A DNA stretch of 64,000 bases, taken from positions 2,590,001 to 2,654,000 of the forward strand of contig NZ_CP030265.1 of the NCBI RefSeq assembly GCF_008843145.1, in the 5' to 3' direction. Positions 8,917 to 20,499 of the stretch are shown here, in pieces (the stretch's first letter is position 1; each line of letters starts with the position of its first letter). Source of the stretch: Skermanella pratensis (lineage in GTDB: Bacteria > Pseudomonadota > Alphaproteobacteria > Azospirillales > Azospirillaceae). The translations under genes were made by a program, and so were the position numbers. The notes beneath the pieces are model-generated. The model was not told the origin of the DNA. It saw nothing but the letters and a program-made list of their open reading frames with translations, and searched no databases.

Positions 8917-9663
8917 TCAGGCATGCTGGAAGTGATCCCGGACCTCCTGCGTAAGTCGGTCGAGTTCCGTCGGGGCGAGGGCGCCAACCACGATGTACAG
9001 GTACCCGTTATCGTCCCAGGCGGCAACCTTAAGTCCCTTGCCCGGGTCGTACTGGACCGGGGCGCTCGCTGTCTGGTCGGACTTCGTGATGCACAGCGCG
9101 ATCGGCTGCCGGTCCGGGGCGGAATAGAGCAGCTGCGCGATCGGCTGGTCGGCTTCCGCCAGCAGTCTGCCGCCTTCGAATATCCAACCTTCGGACGACA
9201 GGTCGGGAACCGTGAACTGCAGTCCGATGCGCGCACCCAGCCATTCCTCGATATGGTCTTTCCGCGATGCGGGGACTTCGGCCAGGTGTTCGGTCTCCGC
9301 CGCGTAGACGGAGTGATAGGCTGCGACGTCGGCCATGAAGTGCTCACGCCCGCTTCCGTGCGACGGAAACGCGGAGAGACCGGCTCCGACGACCAGGGCG
9401 ACCATGGCGGCGACAAGGCCGGCCAGGAAGACCGGGTTCTTGACAATGCGCCCCTTGGGCCTGGGCTTGAGCAGGACGATGTTGTTCCTCGGCTCTTCTT
9501 CCGGGAAGGCGGACCGCAGCAAGGCGGCCGTGTCGCGCATGTCCCTGACCTTGGCCTGGGCAACGGGGTCGCGGGCAATGCCAGCCTCCACGGCCAGCCG
9601 TGTCTCTAGGGGCAATTCCTCGTCGACATAGGCGACAAGGATTTCATCTGTCAGTTCGATCAT
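8917..9663 (-). CDS. Membrane anti-sigma factor for the adjacent ECF sigma
   Basis: 248 residues. The N-terminal 70 residues form a cytoplasmic helical anti-sigma-like domain (ILVAYVDEELPLETR near 8-22, then an RDMRDTAALLRSAF helix). One transmembrane helix follows (about 79-96, LAGLVAAMVALVVGAG), then a periplasmic domain of about 150 residues that I do not recognise by name. The zinc-binding HxxxCxxC of the ZAS group is not present. It sits 157 bases downstream of the ECF sigma gene on the same strand, the usual arrangement for a sigma/anti-sigma pair. The same N-terminal pattern recurs in the truncated copy at 10913-11224. Confidence 0.78.
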   Translation of the reverse strand: MIELTDEILVAYVDEELPLETRLAVEAGIARDPVAQAKVRDMRDTAALLRSAFPEEEPRNNIVLLKPRPKGRIVKNPVFLAGLVAAMVALVVGAGLSAFPSHGSGREHFMADVAAYHSVYAAETEHLAEVPASRKDHIEEWLGARIGLQFTVPDLSSEGWIFEGGRLLAEADQPIAQLLYSAPDRQPIALCITKSDQTASAPVQYDPGKGLKVAAWDDNGYLYIVVGALAPTELDRLTQEVRDHFQHA

Positions 9664-9820
9664 TTACGTTCCGTGCTCAGGGGCACCGCCGGGAGCCGGG
9701 TCGATCGGATAGCCGGTTCCTGGCGATCAGCCGGTTACCCCTTCATGGTCGCCGCGGCGACGATACTCAGGACTGATAGTGGGGCATCCGCTCCGACCGA
9801 ATGGTGAAATCTTTCGGGGG

Positions 9821-10336
9821 TCAGCCAACTTTGCCGACCGGGGTGCCGACATGGCCCGAATGGGCTTGCCGCATCCGTTCCGCCAGGGCAAGGCGCGCGC
9901 GGGCCAGGCGGCTCATCAGCGTCCCGATCGGAATCCCGAGCACGTTGGCCGCTTCCTGATAGCTCAGCCCGTCGACGCAGACAAGCATCAGGGCGGCCCG
10001 CTGCTCCGCCGGCAAGCGCGCCATTTCCAAGCGCACACGGGCCAGGGTAGAACGGACATCGACCGTAGCCTCGCCATTCTCCCCGACGATCTCCAGGCCG
10101 GCCTCTATGGGGTCGGAAAGCTTGCTCCGCGCGCTGCGCTTCTCGTCGATCCAGGCGTTGTTGATGACCCGATACATCCAGCTTTCCAGACAGAGGATGC
10201 CGTCGTAAGCCTCGGGCTTGCGCAGGAGGCGTTCGCAGGCCCGTTGCACCAAGTCGTCCCCGGCATCGCGCGAACCCGTCAGGACCCGTGCAAAGCGCTG
10301 CAACTTCGGCAGTATGGCAACAATTTTGTCTCTCAC
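9821..10336 (-). CDS. ECF RNA polymerase sigma factor
   Basis: 171 residues, normal for an ECF sigma with only regions 2 and 4. Region 2: LQRFARVLTGSRDAGDDLVQ (about 12-32) and the region 2.4 segment LESWMYRVINNAWIDEKR (about 51-68). Region 4: LPAEQRAALMLVCVDGLSYQ followed by EAANVLGIPIGTLMSRLARAR (about 110-150), a clear helix-turn-helix. It probably directs a small regulon including itself and the downstream anti-sigma factor. I could not find a matching promoter pair upstream. Its signal is unknown. Confidence 0.92.
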   Translation of the reverse strand: MRDKIVAILPKLQRFARVLTGSRDAGDDLVQRACERLLRKPEAYDGILCLESWMYRVINNAWIDEKRSARSKLSDPIEAGLEIVGENGEATVDVRSTLARVRLEMARLPAEQRAALMLVCVDGLSYQEAANVLGIPIGTLMSRLARARLALAERMRQAHSGHVGTPVGKVG

Positions 10337-12048: not shown

Positions 12049-12426
12049 TCAGGAGGCGTCCGGTACGGAACCGGCGAACATGCGCTGTCCAGGGTCGCGT
12101 CCAGGCCGGCGGGGAGTGCCGGATCGGGGGAAACTCCCTTCCGTCACCGTCAACTTGCTTAACAGTGCCAGCCGGCCGCGTAGCAAGCGGTTCCTGATCT
12201 CCTCGACCGAGGTGGAGAGCTGCGCCGCCGCTTCCCGGTAGCTCAATCCTTCAACGCAAACCAGCATGATGGCCAGGCGCTCTTCGGGAGGCAAAGCGTC
12301 CAGCTCGTGACGAACCTGCCGTGGCGATGAGTCATAAACGGATCTCTTCACTGCTTCCTCTTGCGAAATGGTCCGGTGCTCCACAGTCGCGAATGGAAGT
12401 AGCCTGCAAGGGCAATTAGACAACAT
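12049..12426 (-). pseudogene. ECF sigma factor fragment (region 4 only)
   Basis: The 125-residue frame contains ELDALPPEERLAIMLVCVEG followed by LSYREAAAQLSTSVEEIRNR, a clear sigma region 4 helix-turn-helix, very like LPAEQRAALMLVCVDGLSYQ in the intact sigma factor at 9821-10336. Region 2 is absent: the N-terminal 45 residues are unrelated and I find no region 2 remains upstream in any frame. Without region 2 it cannot bind core polymerase or the -10 element as a sigma factor. It lies upstream of the truncated anti-sigma gene in the same orientation, so the two together look like a decayed duplicate of the neighbouring module. Confidence 0.65.
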
Positions 12427-13522: not shown

Positions 13523-15322
13523 ATGAGAAGCCCAACAAGAATTGCCCGACGCGCCGCGTCGGCCGCAAGCGCGGTCGCTTTGTCCCTTCTGGTGGGGACC
13601 GCCATCTTTCCACCAGGCTCGGCAAAGGCCGGCGACGTTTCGCAGGACCGCCTGCTGAAGGCTCACGATGCGGAGCCGCAGAACTGGCTGCATCATCACC
13701 AGTCCTACAGCGGCCAGCGTTTTTCGAAGCTCGACCAGATCAACACGGGCAACGTCAAGAACATGAAGGTTGCCTGGACCATGGCGCTGGGCGGCATCGA
13801 GAAAGGCGGTATCTGGCCTCATGGCGGGCTCGAAGGAACGCCCATCGTCGAGGACGGCATGATGTATGTCACCGACGGATGGGGCAGCGTCTACAAGCTC
13901 GATGTCCATGGCGGGGCCGGCAAGCTCGTCTGGAAGATGGATCCCAAGACCGACAAGGAGTGGTCGGGTGCCGTCGCCTGTTGCGGCGTCAACAACCGGG
14001 GCGTGGCGCTCTGGAAGGACAAGGTGATCTCCCATACCCTCGACGGGCGGCTGATCTCCACCGACAAGGAGACCGGCGAGGTCGCCTGGGAGCGCAAGGT
14101 CGCCGATCCCGGCGTCGCCGAGACCATCACGGGCGCGCCTCTGATCGTCAAGGACATGGCGATCACCGGCGTCGGCGGGGGCGAGTACGGGATTCGGGGC
14201 TGGATCGCGGCCACCGACCTGAACGACGGCAAGGAGGTCTGGAGGCGGCACACCATTCCCGCGCCGGGCGAACCGGGGCACGAGACCTGGAAGGACGACT
14301 ACGAGGCCTGGAAGACCGGCGGCGGCTCCACCTGGGTCACCGGCACCTACGATCCTCAGCTCGACGTCATCTACTGGGGAGTCGGCAATCCCGGACCCGA
14401 CTGGGACAGCCAGTACCGGCCGGGCGACAACCTCTACACCAACAGCGCGCTGGCGCTGGACCCGGCCACCGGACAGATCAAGTGGCATTACCAATACACG
14501 CCGAACGACCCCTACGACTATGACGGCGTCTCGGAGCACGTGCTGGTCGACGAGACGATCCGGGGAGCGCCGCGCAAGCTCACGCTCCATGCCAACCGCA
14601 ACGGCTTCGGCTATGCCCTGGACCGCGAGAGCGGCGACTTCCTTTGGGGGGCGAAGTTCGTCGACAAGGTGACCTGGACGCCGGGCCTGGACGAGAAGAC
14701 GGGAAAGCCGCTCAACTACGACAGTTCGGCCCAGGTTCAGCAATATGCGGAAGGGACGGCGCCCAGCCGCGACAACCCGGTCGGCACGTCATGCCCCGGC
14801 AACATGGGCGGCAAGAACTGGCCGCCGACCGCCTATAACCCACAGCTCAAGCTCTGGTACATTCCGGTCATCGAGAGCTGCAACCAGATGCTGAACGAGG
14901 AGATCATTCCCGGCGAGAGCTACCAGCCGCGGGAGTGGTTCACCGGCGGAGGACCGCGTCAGCACGAACAGATCACCGGGAGCGTGACGGCGATCGACGT
15001 CACGACCGGCGAAGTCGCCGGCAAGTTCAAGACCCACTATCCGCTGCTCGGCGGCATGCTCGCCACCGCCGGCAACGTCGTCTTCACCGGCCATCCATCG
15101 GGGGAGATCTACGCGCTCGACGCGAAGACGCTGGAACAGCTCTGGACGTTCAATACCGGGTCGGGTGTCAACGCCCCGCCGATGACCTTCTCGGTGGACG
15201 GCAAGCAGTATGTCGCGATCCTCGTCGGCCTCGGGGGCGCTTGGCCGAAATGGTTCATCGACGGCACCAAGGGACTGGAGAAGGTCCAGCCCAGCAGCAT
15301 GCTCTACGTCTTCTCGCTGTAG
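13523..15322 (+). CDS. PQQ-dependent alcohol dehydrogenase, lanthanide-type signature
   Basis: 599 residues with a Sec signal peptide (about 1-36). This is a periplasmic eight-bladed quinoprotein of the methanol/ethanol dehydrogenase family. The vicinal cysteine pair that forms the disulfide over PQQ is at C153-C154. Metal ligands by pattern: E221 (GGGEYGIRG), N289 (GVGNPGPDW), catalytic base D332, and an additional Asp two residues later, D334 (PYDYDGV). Asp at that second position is the known marker of lanthanide-dependent enzymes (XoxF, ExaF/PedH types), whereas calcium-dependent MxaF has Ala. The absence of a fused haem domain and the following cytochrome gene fit a type I enzyme passing electrons to a soluble c cytochrome. 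The substrate is unknown: methanol, ethanol or other alcohols. No pqq synthesis genes are in the window. Confidence 0.93.
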   Translation: MRSPTRIARRAASAASAVALSLLVGTAIFPPGSAKAGDVSQDRLLKAHDAEPQNWLHHHQSYSGQRFSKLDQINTGNVKNMKVAWTMALGGIEKGGIWPHGGLEGTPIVEDGMMYVTDGWGSVYKLDVHGGAGKLVWKMDPKTDKEWSGAVACCGVNNRGVALWKDKVISHTLDGRLISTDKETGEVAWERKVADPGVAETITGAPLIVKDMAITGVGGGEYGIRGWIAATDLNDGKEVWRRHTIPAPGEPGHETWKDDYEAWKTGGGSTWVTGTYDPQLDVIYWGVGNPGPDWDSQYRPGDNLYTNSALALDPATGQIKWHYQYTPNDPYDYDGVSEHVLVDETIRGAPRKLTLHANRNGFGYALDRESGDFLWGAKFVDKVTWTPGLDEKTGKPLNYDSSAQVQQYAEGTAPSRDNPVGTSCPGNMGGKNWPPTAYNPQLKLWYIPVIESCNQMLNEEIIPGESYQPREWFTGGGPRQHEQITGSVTAIDVTTGEVAGKFKTHYPLLGGMLATAGNVVFTGHPSGEIYALDAKTLEQLWTFNTGSGVNAPPMTFSVDGKQYVAILVGLGGAWPKWFIDGTKGLEKVQPSSMLYVFSL

Positions 15323-15419: not shown

Positions 15420-15908
15420 ATGCCCATGAGAACTGCCATCATTCGAAAGCTGCTGGTCCTGCCTGCCGCCGTCCTTCTTCTGCCGCTGCTCGGAGTCCCG
15501 TCGGCGACGGCGGCCGACGGCAAGGCGATCTATGAGAAGGCGAACTGCGTCGGCTGCCACAAGTGGCACGGCGGCGGTGGCGGCGGCTATGGCGGTGCCG
15601 CCCTGTCGCTTCGCACGACCCAGCTCGAGCGGGACCAACTGGTCGAGGTGGTCCGGTGCGGCCGGCCGGGAACGCGCATGCCCTTCCATGACAAGAACGC
15701 GTGGTCTTCCGGGGAGTGCTACGGCACGGACCCCAAGACGCTCGGCGACGAAATGCCGCCCCAGGCGGCGGAGTTCCTGTCGGAAGAGGAGATCGCCAGC
15801 GTCGCCGACTACGTCACGGCCAATCAGAAGGGCAAGGACAAGCCCGACCGCGCGGACTGCGTTTCCTTCTGGGGAGAGGGGGCAAAACAATGCCAAAGCT
15901 ACAAGTGA
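15420..15908 (+). CDS. Periplasmic c-type cytochrome, probable electron acceptor of the PQQ dehydrogenase
   Basis: 162 residues. A signal peptide (about 1-32, ending SATA-AD) precedes one haem site CVGCH (C43, C46, H47) followed by a Gly-rich loop. The distal Met is probably M87 (GTRMPFHD) or M112 (DEMPPQA). Extra cysteines at about 80, 100 and the C-terminus (DCVSF, QCQSYK) suggest disulfides. It begins about 100 bases after the dehydrogenase stop with GAGGGGAG upstream, and its end overlaps the next gene by 19 bases. The role as partner of the upstream quinoprotein is inferred from position and family. Confidence 0.88.
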   Translation: MPMRTAIIRKLLVLPAAVLLLPLLGVPSATAADGKAIYEKANCVGCHKWHGGGGGGYGGAALSLRTTQLERDQLVEVVRCGRPGTRMPFHDKNAWSSGECYGTDPKTLGDEMPPQAAEFLSEEEIASVADYVTANQKGKDKPDRADCVSFWGEGAKQCQSYK

Positions 15909-16471
15909 GAGGGACCGCGTTCCTGTGGAGCGCCTGCATCCTGGCGGGCCTTGCGGCCTCGGCCGGCCCTGCCGCCGCCGCGGCCGATCCGCTGGAAAGC
16001 GATGTCCGCCAGGTCAGGGTCGGGGCGACGCTTGACGATAAGTCGGCTGCCGGCCTTGCCGGGTTCTCCTGTGCCGCCGGCGACGGCGCCGAGCTTGCGG
16101 ACTGGTCCGATTACCGGCGCTGCCCCGCCGACGCCAGGGGACTGCGCGGCGTGCGCTTTGAATTCCAGGAGAACAAGACGCTGGCCCGGATGGCCGACCG
16201 CTGGGAGGGAACCAAGATCGCCGGCCATCCCGTGATCCTGACCATGGCCGTCAGCGATGCCGGCACGATCGAGGCCCTGCACATCGTGACCGACGAGAAA
16301 GCCAGCCCTTACCTCAGGAAGAAGGCTTTCCTGCTCTCGCTCAGGGTGCGGGAGCATTACGGCACCGACGGCTGGGCCTGCACCGACCTGCCGCGGCAGA
16401 CGGGAGAAACGGAGATCGGGGCATGTTCATCAAGCAGGAGTGCCGCAAGGCCGTCGCCGGGCGCAGCCTGA
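15890..16471 (+). CDS. Exported protein of unknown function in the PQQ cluster (frame probably shifted near its end)
   Basis: 193 residues as read. A signal peptide (about 1-30, ending PAAAAA-DP) is followed by a domain I do not recognise, with four cysteines as read (about C61, C78 and two near the C-terminus) suggesting disulfides. The last 16 or so residues (ACSSSRSAARPSPGAA) look like out-of-frame translation. A one-base change at the G run 16418-16421 joins the body to the sensible reading frame MFIKQECRKAVAG, which runs to 16566 and overlaps the next start by ATGA. The real protein is therefore probably about 225 residues. The start overlaps the cytochrome gene. A role with the dehydrogenase or cytochrome is inferred only from linkage. 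Confidence 0.6.
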   Translation: MPKLQVRGTAFLWSACILAGLAASAGPAAAAADPLESDVRQVRVGATLDDKSAAGLAGFSCAAGDGAELADWSDYRRCPADARGLRGVRFEFQENKTLARMADRWEGTKIAGHPVILTMAVSDAGTIEALHIVTDEKASPYLRKKAFLLSLRVREHYGTDGWACTDLPRQTGETEIGACSSSRSAARPSPGAA

Positions 16472-16566
16472 AGATGGAAACCAGGTTGTTCCGTGGCCCC
16501 GGACAAGAGGGCAAGGCCTACGAGGACTCGGTGACCGTCGAAGTCACGCGGGCGTCCGCGTCATGA
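16423..16566 (+). CDS. Likely C-terminal continuation of the preceding exported protein, or a 47-residue separate ORF
   Basis: Reads MFIKQECRKAVAGRSLKMET, then about 27 more residues to EVTRASAS. It overlaps the preceding frame and ends in an ATGA overlap with the next gene. Its codon pattern is good, unlike the terminal residues of the overlapping frame. The simplest explanation is that it is the true end of the 15890 gene after restoring one G. A separate tiny protein is possible but there is no ribosome site of note before 16423. Confidence 0.4.
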   Translation: MFIKQECRKAVAGRSLKMETRLFRGPGQEGKAYEDSVTVEVTRASAS

Positions 16567-16964
16567 CCGGGGCTGGCATCTGGATGCCGAGGTGGGGGAT
16601 CGGCGCGGCCCTGGCCGTCTCCGTCGCCCTCGGCCCGGCGGCGCTTGCGCACAACAATCCCCAGATCAAGGAGACCCTGCTCCAGACAGTCACCGTCGAG
16701 GCCGCCGCGGAGCCGGCCAGCAGCGAGCCGTTCGACCTGAGCCCGCCGCCGCGCACCGTGGAAATGGTCTGGAAGATAGAGGGGGATAAGGCCGATGCCG
16801 TGCGCTTCTCGGTCGAGGCCGACGGCAAGACCGTGGCGACCGATGTCCACCACGGCAAGGTGACCCCGCGCATCAAGGCGGGACAGTACAGGCTGGTCGA
16901 CATCACGGGCGCGTCGGCGCCCCTGAAGATCGGCGTCTTCGCGAACGTGATGGAAAAGAAGTAG
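16563..16964 (+). CDS. Small exported protein of unknown function
   Basis: 133 residues. A signal peptide (about 1-29, ending PAALA-HN) precedes a short beta-rich domain with no cysteines. I do not recognise the family. The start overlaps the preceding frame by four bases (ATGA), so it belongs to the same transcript. The mature N-terminus HNNPQIKETLLQTVTVEA and the segment VKWKIEGDK-like MVWKIEGDKADAVRF suggest a small ligand-binding or scaffolding sandwich, but that is speculative. It may be a cluster-specific partner of the dehydrogenase. Confidence 0.65.
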   Translation: MTGAGIWMPRWGIGAALAVSVALGPAALAHNNPQIKETLLQTVTVEAAAEPASSEPFDLSPPPRTVEMVWKIEGDKADAVRFSVEADGKTVATDVHHGKVTPRIKAGQYRLVDITGASAPLKIGVFANVMEKK

Positions 16965-17002: not shown

Positions 17003-17596
17003 ATGGGTACCAGGATCCCCGCATTGACGGTTTCCGTCTTTCTGGCGATGGGCGTGTCCCTTGCGCATGGTCAGACGCCGGTGACCACCAGGGCCGATTC
17101 GCCGCCGATATCCGATCCCAAGTTCGTCGAGCAAGCCACGGCCGCAGGCTTGGCGGAAGTCGAGGTCAGCAAGATCGCCGCGCAGAAAGCCACCAGCCCG
17201 GACGTGAAGGCTTTCGCCCAGGAGATGGTCCGCGACCACGAGACGGCGAACGCGGAACTCAAGAAGATCGCCGAAGCCAGCGGCTTCCCGACGGAAGGCA
17301 GCAAGGGTTCGCCGCCGACCACGGGCGAGCAGGGTGCGGCACTGCAGCCCGCCCAATCCCTTGAGACGCTGTCCGGAGCGGAGTTCGACCGCGAATACAT
17401 GGTCATGCAGGTCAAGGACCATGACGATGCGGTGAAGCTCTACGAAGCGCAGGCCGCGAACAGCCAGGACGACGAACTCCGCGGCTTCGCCACGGCGCAG
17501 CTTCCGGCGCTGAAGCGCCACCTGGAGCGTGCGCGCGCCATCGCCGATCCCCTGATCGGCAGCGAGGCGGCGACTGGAACCACCGGCACCAAGTGA
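17003..17596 (+). CDS. DUF4142 domain exported protein
   Basis: 197 residues. A signal peptide (about 1-23, ending AHG-QT) is followed by a four-helix DUF4142 domain (about 37-175): KFVEQATAAGLAEVEVSKIA, then VKAFAQEMVRDH and EFDREYMVMQVKDHDDAVKL with the conserved His/Asp pairs. The fold is ferritin-like, so metal or stress roles have been proposed for the family, but none is established here. A Thr/Gly-rich tail ends the protein. A clear GGGAGGAAAAC ribosome site precedes the ATG. Confidence 0.85.
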   Translation: MGTRIPALTVSVFLAMGVSLAHGQTPVTTRADSPPISDPKFVEQATAAGLAEVEVSKIAAQKATSPDVKAFAQEMVRDHETANAELKKIAEASGFPTEGSKGSPPTTGEQGAALQPAQSLETLSGAEFDREYMVMQVKDHDDAVKLYEAQAANSQDDELRGFATAQLPALKRHLERARAIADPLIGSEAATGTTGTK

Positions 17597-17735: not shown

Positions 17736-18188
17736 ATGGCGGTCAATCTCACCGTGAATGGACAGCGGCACCAGGTGGATGTCCCGCCCGACACGCCGCT
17801 CCTCTGGGTCATCCGTGACGTGCTCGGACTGATCGGCACCAAATACGGATGCGGCATCGCGGCGTGCGGCGCCTGCACGGTCCATGTCGGCGCGGAGGCC
17901 GTCCGCTCCTGCGTCACCTTCGTCGGCGATATCGACGGCCCCGTGACAACGATCGAAGGCCTCGACCCGCAAGGCAACCATCCGGTGCAACGGGCCTGGC
18001 GCGATGCCAACGTGCCCCAGTGCGGCTACTGTCAGGCCGGCCAGATCATGCAGGCGGCGGCGTTCGTGGCGTCCACCCGGAACCCGGACGACCGCCAGAT
18101 CTCCGAGGCGATGTCCGGCAACATCTGCCGGTGCGGCTGCTACCAGCGGATCCACGCCGCCGTGAAAGCGGCCAGCACGGGAGCATGA
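17736..18188 (+). CDS. iorA: 2Fe-2S subunit of molybdenum hydroxylase (isoquinoline 1-oxidoreductase alpha-type)
   Basis: 150 residues, the standard size for the small iron-sulfur subunit. The plant-type ferredoxin cluster uses C39, C44, C47 and C59 ([13 protein letters not shown]). The C-terminal helical domain binds the second cluster with C96, C99, C131 and C133 (CGYCQAGQ, then ICRCGCY). It passes electrons from the molybdenum subunit encoded five bases downstream. There is no FAD subunit gene, which is typical of the two-subunit Ior type where electrons go to a cytochrome. The gene symbol is by family; isoquinoline itself need not be the substrate. Confidence 0.9.
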
Positions 18189-18192
18189 CGCC

Positions 18193-20499
18193 ATGCCGAA
18201 GCAAGCCCTCATCCAGAACGTCAGCCGCCGCGGCTTCCTCAAGGGCGTCGGTGCCGCGACCGGTTTCGTGGTGGCCCTCCAATTCCTGCCGCGGGGCGCC
18301 TTCGCGGCGGAAACCTACGCAACCGGGGCCGGCGAGATGCCGCACGGCACGGTCAACGATCCCCACGTGTTCATCAGCATCGACCCGTCGGGCACGGTCA
18401 CGATCGTGACGCACCGCTCGGAGATGGGCACCGGCATCCGGACCAGCCTGCCCATGGTCGTCGCCGACGAGCTGGAGGCGGACTGGTCCCGGGTCCGGCT
18501 GACCCAGGCGCCGGCCGACGAGCCGCGCTACGGCAATCAGGACACCGACGGGTCGCGCAGCATGCGGCACTTCATCCAGCCCATGCGCCAGTGCGGCGCC
18601 GCCATGCGCCAGATGCTCGAAGAGGCGGCTGCCCGGGAATGGAAGGTGCCGGTCTCGGAGGTCCAGGCGGCTAACCACGAGGTCGTCCATTCCGGTTCGG
18701 GCCGCAGGCTCGGCTACGGGGATCTCGCCCAGGCTGCCATGGATCTCCCGACGCCGCCCCTCGACCAGCTCAAGCTCAAGAAGGATGCCGCCTTCCGCTA
18801 CATGGGAAAGGGCAACATATCGATCTACGACCTGGACGACATCATCACGGGCAAGGCGCAGTACGGCTACGACACCATGCTTCCCGGCATGAAGTTCGCG
18901 GTCGTGGCGCATCCGCCGGTGGTCGGCGGCAAGGTCAAGTCCTTCGACGCGTCGGAGACCCTGAAGGTTCCCGGGGTGGAGAAGGTCATCGAAATCCAGA
19001 CCCAGGACCCACGCGTGAAGTTCACGCCGCTTGGCGGCATCGCCGTGGTGGCGAGCAACACCTACGCCGCCATGAAGGGCAAGGAAGCCCTGAAGATCGA
19101 GTGGGACGACGGACCGAACGCGTCCTACGACTCCGCCGCCTACAAGGCCGAGATGGAGAAGACGGCCCGCCAGCCGTCGAAGATCGTCCGCAACGAGGGC
19201 GATCCGGAAAAGGCGTTTTCCGCCGCAGCCAGGAAGGTGACGGCGGAATACTACGTCCCCCATCTCGCCTGCGCCCCCATGGAGCCGCCGGTGGCGACGG
19301 CCGTTGTCGGCAACGGCCAATGCGAGGTCTGGGCTCCGCTTCAGTATCCCTACGGCGCGCGGGAGGACTTGGCGAAACTGCTGAACCTGCCCATGGACAA
19401 GGTGAAGGTCAACGTCACGCTTCTGGGCGGCGGCTTCGGGCGCAAGTCGCAGGCCGACTTCGCGCAGGAGGCGGCCCTGGTGTCGCAGGCGCTGGGCGGA
19501 GTGCCGGTGAAGCTCGCCTGGAGCCGGGAAGACGATATCCAGCACAGTTTCTACCATACCGTCTCGCTCGACCACCTGGAGGCGGCGCTCGACGAGAAGG
19601 GCAAGGTCACGGGCTGGCTGCACCGCACCGTGGCGCCGTCCCTCATGTCCACCTTCATGCCGGACCCGAAGCACGAGCACTCGCTCGAACTCGCCATGGG
19701 CGTGGTCGACGTCCCCTTCGCGATCCCCAACATCCGGTGCGAGAACGGCGAAGCGGCTGCCCATACCCGGATCGGCTGGTTCCGGTCGGTCGCCAACATC
19801 CCGCACGCCTTCGCGGCACAGTCCTTCGTGGCCGAGCTCGCCCACAGCCTCGGCAGGGACTCGAAGGATTTCCTCCTGGAACTGATCGGGCCGGCCAGGA
19901 AGCTGGACATCGGCAAGACGGGGATGGTGGAGGAGTTCTGGAACTACGGCGATCCCTACGAGACGTATCCGATCGACACCGGGCGCCTCGCCAATGTCGT
20001 CAGGGTCGCGGCGGACGGGATCGGGTGGGGCCGCACCCTGCCGAAGGGGCACGGCCTCGGCATCGCCGCGCACCGCAGCTTCCTGTCCTACGTGGCGACC
20101 GCGATCGAGGTCGCGATCGACGACCAGGGGAACCTGTCGGTCCCTCGGGTCGACACCGCGATCGACTGCGGCTTCGCGGTCAATCCGGAGCGTATCCGGT
20201 CGCAGATCGAGGGAGCGGCCGTGATGGGCATGAGTTCGACCATGTTCAGCGAGATCACCTTCGAGAAGGGCCGGGCGGTCCAGGCCAACTACGACACCTA
20301 TGAGGTCGCCCGCATCGACACGTCGCCGCTCGACGTGCGCACGCACATCATCCCCCACGGGTACGATGTTCCGGCGAGCGGCGTCGGCGAACCGGGGGTG
20401 CCGCCCTTCGCGCCGGCGCTGTGCAACGCGATCTTCGCGGCGACGGGCAAGCGCATCCGGACCCTGCCGATCGGCGGGCAGGACCTGAGGGCGATCTGA
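18193..20499 (+). CDS. iorB: Molybdopterin-binding subunit of molybdenum hydroxylase (isoquinoline 1-oxidoreductase beta-type, Tat-exported)
   Basis: 768 residues. A Tat signal (SRRGFLKGVG, R12-R13) exports the folded holoenzyme with its cofactor. The family organisation is that of the aldehyde oxidase/xanthine dehydrogenase large subunit, including LLGGGFGRKSQADFAQEA and the C-terminal catalytic Glu in GVGEPG (near residue 733). Members of this two-subunit group oxidise N-heterocycles or aldehydes. Beside a PQQ alcohol dehydrogenase and a cytochrome, oxidation of the aldehyde product to an acid is a reasonable inference, but not shown. It follows the 2Fe-2S subunit by four bases. The very long antisense frame over this gene is a codon shadow. 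Confidence 0.9.
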   Translation: MPKQALIQNVSRRGFLKGVGAATGFVVALQFLPRGAFAAETYATGAGEMPHGTVNDPHVFISIDPSGTVTIVTHRSEMGTGIRTSLPMVVADELEADWSRVRLTQAPADEPRYGNQDTDGSRSMRHFIQPMRQCGAAMRQMLEEAAAREWKVPVSEVQAANHEVVHSGSGRRLGYGDLAQAAMDLPTPPLDQLKLKKDAAFRYMGKGNISIYDLDDIITGKAQYGYDTMLPGMKFAVVAHPPVVGGKVKSFDASETLKVPGVEKVIEIQTQDPRVKFTPLGGIAVVASNTYAAMKGKEALKIEWDDGPNASYDSAAYKAEMEKTARQPSKIVRNEGDPEKAFSAAARKVTAEYYVPHLACAPMEPPVATAVVGNGQCEVWAPLQYPYGAREDLAKLLNLPMDKVKVNVTLLGGGFGRKSQADFAQEAALVSQALGGVPVKLAWSREDDIQHSFYHTVSLDHLEAALDEKGKVTGWLHRTVAPSLMSTFMPDPKHEHSLELAMGVVDVPFAIPNIRCENGEAAAHTRIGWFRSVANIPHAFAAQSFVAELAHSLGRDSKDFLLELIGPARKLDIGKTGMVEEFWNYGDPYETYPIDTGRLANVVRVAADGIGWGRTLPKGHGLGIAAHRSFLSYVATAIEVAIDDQGNLSVPRVDTAIDCGFAVNPERIRSQIEGAAVMGMSSTMFSEITFEKGRAVQANYDTYEVARIDTSPLDVRTHIIPHGYDVPASGVGEPGVPPFAPALCNAIFAATGKRIRTLPIGGQDLRAI

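Follow-up and report, generated by a model that had tools for sequence, protein, structure and literature searches.

A type-6b-like PQQ alcohol dehydrogenase with a lanthanide signature in Skermanella pratensis, and the unnamed secreted protein family encoded beside it

Which metal serves the PQQ-dependent alcohol dehydrogenase encoded in a 64,000-nucleotide stretch of the Skermanella pratensis genome (hereafter the window), to which branch of these quinoproteins does the enzyme belong, and what do the neighbouring genes say about the way in which it works? The genome consists of one contig of 5.87 Mb, and the gene in question is the following:

13523..15322, + strand: PQQ-dependent alcohol dehydrogenase, type-6b-like, 599 aa (open reading frame, TIGR03075, PF01011, alignment and tree)

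The open reading frame encodes 599 amino acids followed by a stop codon, lies downstream of a GGAGG-type ribosome site and begins with what, judged by eye, resembles a signal peptide. TIGR03075 (PQQ-dependent dehydrogenase, methanol/ethanol family) matched the protein with 581.5 bits, over the cut-off of 480.05, and the Pfam search returned PF01011 at an E value of 4e-67. The best matches among solved structures were entries 6zcv and 6zcw, listed in the structure table as quinoprotein ethanol dehydrogenase, which we take to be PedH. The latter entry is named as PedH in PMC11996626 (excerpt). The closest named relatives of the dehydrogenase were found in Skermanella aerolata (88% identity) and S. 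stibiiresistens (87%). Within its own family the gene was present in 3 of 82 genomes, all of its own genus (3 of the 5 genus genomes searched), and among the other matches listed identity did not exceed 44%; its spread is thus patchy.

The first-pass annotation had read D332-x-D334 as the lanthanide signature of the enzyme, with E221 and N289 completing the metal site. The residues concerned, together with an adjacent cysteine pair, are encoded as follows:

14183..14185, + strand: metal ligand E221, aligned to Glu of PedH/XoxF
14387..14389, + strand: metal ligand N289, aligned to Asn of PedH/XoxF
14516..14518, + strand: catalytic Asp D332, aligned to the catalytic Asp of PedH/XoxF/MxaF
14522..14524, + strand: extra Asp D334, lanthanide signature by alignment, kept in 31/31 clade rows
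13979..13984, + strand: adjacent cysteine pair C153-C154, kept in 31/31 clade rows

Both readings were borne out by an alignment of 84 sequences that included eight solved anchors. E221, N289, D332 and D334 occupy the metal-ligand columns of PedH (6zcw) and of the XoxF enzymes 6oc5, 6dam, 4mae and 7o6z (the XoxF1, XoxF2 and XoxF5 labels of the solved anchors are our own presumed assignments), so that D334 does sit at the lanthanide position. PedH and all four XoxF anchors have Asp in this column, whereas MxaF (4tqo) has Ala there, ExaA (1flg) Ser and 1kv9 Thr. Within the clade of the window protein, whose 31 rows are the 23-row set of the tree described below plus eight near-identical Methylobacterium rows, E221, N289, D332, D334, R359 and the cysteine pair were each conserved in every row. 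The anchor alignment and this conservation rule out that the D-x-D motif is a chance match. Immediately before the catalytic Asp, 30 of the 31 rows have Tyr and one has Phe, in contrast to the Trp of the solved XoxF and PedH anchors, and therefore the site of the clade is not identical to the characterised ones. Judging from its sequence, the window gene product would be a periplasmic alcohol-oxidising enzyme, and its metal is very probably a rare earth.

The position of the protein among its relatives was examined in a tree of 75 rows, built by a quick method with SH-aLRT support only and lacking XoxF3, XoxF4 and AM1 ExaF; nine of the 84 aligned rows had been dropped, namely eight near-identical Methylobacterium sequences and one divergent one (L126). 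The window protein fell in a 23-row set (SH-aLRT 98) nested in a 46-row set (SH-aLRT 100) that is separate from all eight solved anchors, which comprise XoxF, MxaF, PedH, ExaA and a quinohaemoprotein. Members of the clade come from Methylobacterium, Bradyrhizobium, Acetobacteraceae and marine MAGs labelled Rickettsiales/Pelagibacterales. In the wider superclade beyond the 31 rows, Asp occupies the D334 column in 24 of 24 rows, the cysteine pair is missing in 16 and Asp replaces Glu at E221 in 13. Three other identities were rejected. Against a PedH/ExaA (type 2b) identity, the protein lies outside the PedH/ExaA branch in a tree without AM1 ExaF (support 100 for that branch and 100 for the window superclade), and the genome has a separate PedH relative (910 bits to PedH). 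The protein likewise lies outside the 12-row XoxF/MxaF branch (support 100, in a tree without XoxF3 and XoxF4), and the type-6a-like enzyme of the genome is a paralogue, L037, rather than the window gene.

The earlier suggestion of an "ExaF/PedH-like or less-studied clade" was thus right, in terms of the tree, in its second alternative; the protein is 41% identical to PedH. The clade cannot be called unstudied, however, since by elimination it includes the ExaF of Methylobacterium aquaticum 22A. Six PQQ dehydrogenases were found in M. aquaticum DSM 16371, and 22A has six such genes: mxaF, xoxF1, xoxF2, adh4 and adh6 (these two with 1p locus tags) and exaF (PMC7356819, excerpt). Three of the DSM 16371 enzymes pair with three encoded on plasmid pMaq22A_1p at 90, 94 and 98% identity, two further ones are XoxF5-like, and the sixth (L075, the same as L011) is 68-69% identical to the window protein. 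Because the other five are accounted for, L011/L075 was assigned as the counterpart of 22A ExaF (Maq22A_c07235). Two details fit the elimination: 1p30675 carries Ala at position 301 (PMC5784242, excerpt), as L072 does in our alignment, and c07235 shares 37% identity with the AM1 enzyme (same excerpt), L011 40% with PedH. The same excerpt describes c07235 as La3+-induced and as having Asp at 301. The window protein groups with this DSM 16371 protein, whose match to 22A ExaF is a probable assignment made by elimination.

The enzyme type is accordingly one already known and genetically studied in Methylobacterium, to which the window gene adds a new member. 22A ExaF has been assigned to PQQ-ADH type 6b; a 22A strain that has only ExaF showed slow growth of low yield on ethanol in the presence of La3+ and behaved like the null strain on methanol, and ExaF oxidises formaldehyde in vivo (all PMC7356819, excerpt). 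The 22A-ExaF group occurs mostly in Methylobacterium clade C1 (PMC8561711, excerpt). A literature search pairing Skermanella with lanthanide found no paper.

Elsewhere in the genome, four full-length matches to the window protein were found, the window gene included, and all four carry D-x-D, so that the genome shows a full set of rare-earth-type PQQ dehydrogenases. The other three are L036, the PedH relative mentioned above (WDFD); L038, which is XoxF5-like (WDYD, 934 bits to 6oc5); and L037, which is type-6a-like (WDWD) and 62% identical to L073 of pMaq22A_1p. Fragmentary PQQ matches lie at 5431117-5433047 of the genome. TIGR03871 (XoxJ-type) gave a single genome match, at 4304017-4304706 by XoxF5 with a cytochrome c between, and none in the window; pqqE is present elsewhere in the genome (588.8 bits). 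The search for TonB-dependent receptors (PF00593) gave seven matches in the genome and none in the window, the nearest being 7.5 kb past its end. The EF-hand_5 model had 0 matches in the genome, and therefore no lanmodulin was detected by that model.

Downstream of the dehydrogenase the window carries the following features:

15420..15908, + strand: mono-haem cytochrome c with a CVGCH motif, which probably accepts the electrons (PF13442 and PF00034 both above cut-off)
15890..16471, + strand: ORF3, secreted four-cysteine protein of no named family (profile positions 7-167, E 1.7e-55)
16420..16557, + strand: ORF3 tail in a different frame (profile positions 167-212, E 9.9e-9)
16563..16964, + strand: small secreted protein lacking a Pfam match, with conserved homologues in L013 and in both further Skermanella loci
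17736-20499, after the operon: [2Fe-2S] and molybdopterin subunits, aldehyde-oxidase type

We compared this neighbourhood across 25 full-length loci (26 minus L034, a fragment). A cytochrome c homologue adjoins the dehydrogenase in 24 of them and ORF3 in 23; L017 has neither, and L027 is without ORF3. Nine further loci (L158-L166) all have the cytochrome c, five of them with weak matches of 44-50 bits, and none has ORF3; L027 and L161 are one contig, which is therefore counted in both sets. Clustering of all neighbourhood ORFs revealed no other gene at a fixed place across lineages, if antisense ORFs and an ABC-transporter family with scattered positions are set aside. In three marine MAGs labelled Rickettsiales/Pelagibacterales (L028, L030 and L031) the same three genes are present, with ORF3 and the cytochrome in exchanged positions, and in L013 the homologue of the 16563-16964 protein stands between dehydrogenase and cytochrome. 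A DUF4142 protein (17003-17596), not found in the other two Skermanella loci, separates the operon from the aldehyde-oxidase genes, which might supply a next step for an aldehyde product. Elsewhere in the window, 8917-10336 and 12049-12426 (-) encode a sigma-70 family factor of ECF size, a neighbour without Pfam match that resembles an anti-sigma factor, and a second short protein with sigma region 4 only.

ORF3 overlaps the cytochrome c gene. In the window its frame is broken near 16.42 kb, which puts the tail in a different frame; among the 19 aligned relatives all copies are unbroken, and the break may be either real decay or a sequencing fault. These relatives have, by eye, a signal-peptide-like start, and C57, C74, C160, C181, G103-T104 and H109-P110 are invariant among them. 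NCBIfam gave no family for the 19 relatives up to E 1, Pfam gave no convincing one (three single-member hits, 0.07-0.45), and the ORF3 profile had 0 matches to solved structures up to E 1. The fold, predicted with confidence (mean pLDDT 83.7, pTM 0.78), returned 0 Foldseek matches in the PDB at E <= 0.001; VIA-align gave a best Z of 6.6 to a DUF4309 protein and Z of 4.1-4.8 to several PsbP-type chains, which is below the level at which the tool is trustworthy. No paper naming ORF3 was met in the literature, in which it has no name to search by.

An ORF3-only profile was then searched in 385 Alphaproteobacteria genomes. ORF3 was found in seven, all of which also have a PQQ dehydrogenase match, compared with 146 of the 385 overall (Fisher p 0.001, ignoring kinship). 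Outside the window, 14 of 16 ORF3 genes have a same-strand D-x-D PQQ dehydrogenase at most 1.3 kb away; for the other two (L118, on a short contig, and L122) no PQQ dehydrogenase was found in the stretch examined. The family seems to be without a name so far and is strongly linked to the dehydrogenase. Two small alphaproteobacterial genomes, G160 and G444, carry at least seven and at least five ORF3 copies (L114-L116, L121-L129, L168). Almost every copy has a different D-x-D PQQ dehydrogenase next to it, and many of these enzymes are without the Cys-Cys pair and have Asp for the Glu metal ligand.

What could ORF3 do? One possible but doubtful role is that of a periplasmic helper family dedicated to the D-x-D PQQ dehydrogenases of the superclade, which would act in metal or cofactor loading or in stabilisation and so fill the position of XoxJ/MxaJ in methanol dehydrogenase systems. 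On the idea that ORF3 replaces XoxJ, TIGR03871 was searched in 20 genomes; a match was found in 13 and was over cut-off in 10, and in four genomes (G453, G287, G179 and G376) the dehydrogenase is present while a XoxJ match and ORF3 are both missing. As ORF3 is absent from all nine of L158-L166, a maturation role would not be universal, and its absence from several relatives together with the broken frame in the window argue against an indispensable role; for the same two reasons ORF3 is probably an auxiliary factor. It is the part worth following, being a specific unnamed family whose neighbouring dehydrogenase in 22A has a lanthanide growth phenotype.

From the observed sequence, ligand alignment, clade and gene neighbourhood of the dehydrogenase we propose, with a probability of roughly 0.8, a soluble periplasmic lanthanide PQQ enzyme of the 22A-ExaF branch (type 6b) that passes electrons to the downstream cytochrome c, with ORF3 as an auxiliary. 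A trivalent light lanthanide, presumably, would be held by E221, N289, D332 and D334 and would activate PQQ, and D332, as the base, would abstract the proton of a short-chain alcohol. The best guess for the substrate is ethanol, perhaps also aldehydes such as formaldehyde. Two electrons would leave, one at a time, for the cytochrome c encoded just downstream and then for a terminal oxidase. Secreted ORF3 would most likely aid metal or cofactor loading or stability, and would be dispensable in some lineages.

A different function is conceivable, in which the enzyme is mainly an aldehyde oxidase or a specialised alcohol oxidase working in one periplasmic pathway with the molybdenum hydroxylase at 17736-20499. 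The two subunits of the latter begin within 2.5 kb downstream and recur in each of the two further Skermanella loci, and the formaldehyde oxidation by 22A ExaF would suit an aldehyde role; however, the pair is not kept beyond the genus, where among the other 23 loci only L029 gave a hit, a weak one, to the [2Fe-2S] subunit. We regard such a pathway as unlikely.

The metal itself could also be read otherwise, since D-x-D alone is insufficient evidence: membrane glucose dehydrogenase (m-GDH) has the motif and yet is active with Ca, Mg, Zn and Sr, and PQQ dehydrogenases of one type have been described as heterogeneous in their metal (PMC11996626, excerpt). An alcohol dehydrogenase that is metal-promiscuous or works mainly with calcium, and that retains D-x-D but does not strictly depend on lanthanides, would be compatible with the Tyr or Phe found in place of Trp. 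Such an enzyme is rather improbable, given that D-x-D is common to PedH and the four XoxF anchors and missing in the three other anchors, and that lanthanide use accords with the La3+ response of the 22A relative (PMC5784242, excerpt). Lastly, a XoxF- or MxaF-type methanol dehydrogenase would have the same fold family and the same ligands, but the window protein shares just 36-38% of its residues with the XoxF and MxaF anchors and falls outside the branch that they form, and no xoxJ stands beside its gene, although one adjoins the XoxF5 of the same genome; this identity is highly improbable.

The type-6b lanthanide enzyme that we favour can finally be set against the known systems. PedH of Pseudomonas putida KT2440 (6zcw, type 2b), its best solved match, is alike in fold, ligands and D-x-D, and differs in its separate branch and in an identity of 41%. 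XoxF5 of Methylorubrum extorquens AM1 (6oc5) has the ligands and D-x-D in common with the window protein, which is 38% identical to it, lies on a separate branch and has no adjoining xoxJ. The type 6a enzymes Adh4 and Adh6 of pMaq22A_1p are likewise numbered 6 in the scheme of Keltjens that PMC7356819 (excerpt) quotes; unlike the window protein, to which they are about 36% identical, they have a WDWD or WDWA motif and no Cys pair, and they group with L037. 22A ExaF (type 6b) is presumed to belong to the same clade and to have the same D-x-D site, and the gene order in DSM 16371, dehydrogenase - cytochrome c - ORF3, is that of the window. Compared with 22A ExaF and DSM 16371, the window gene comes from a different genus, its ORF3 frame is broken, and PYDYDG replaces PYDYDS.
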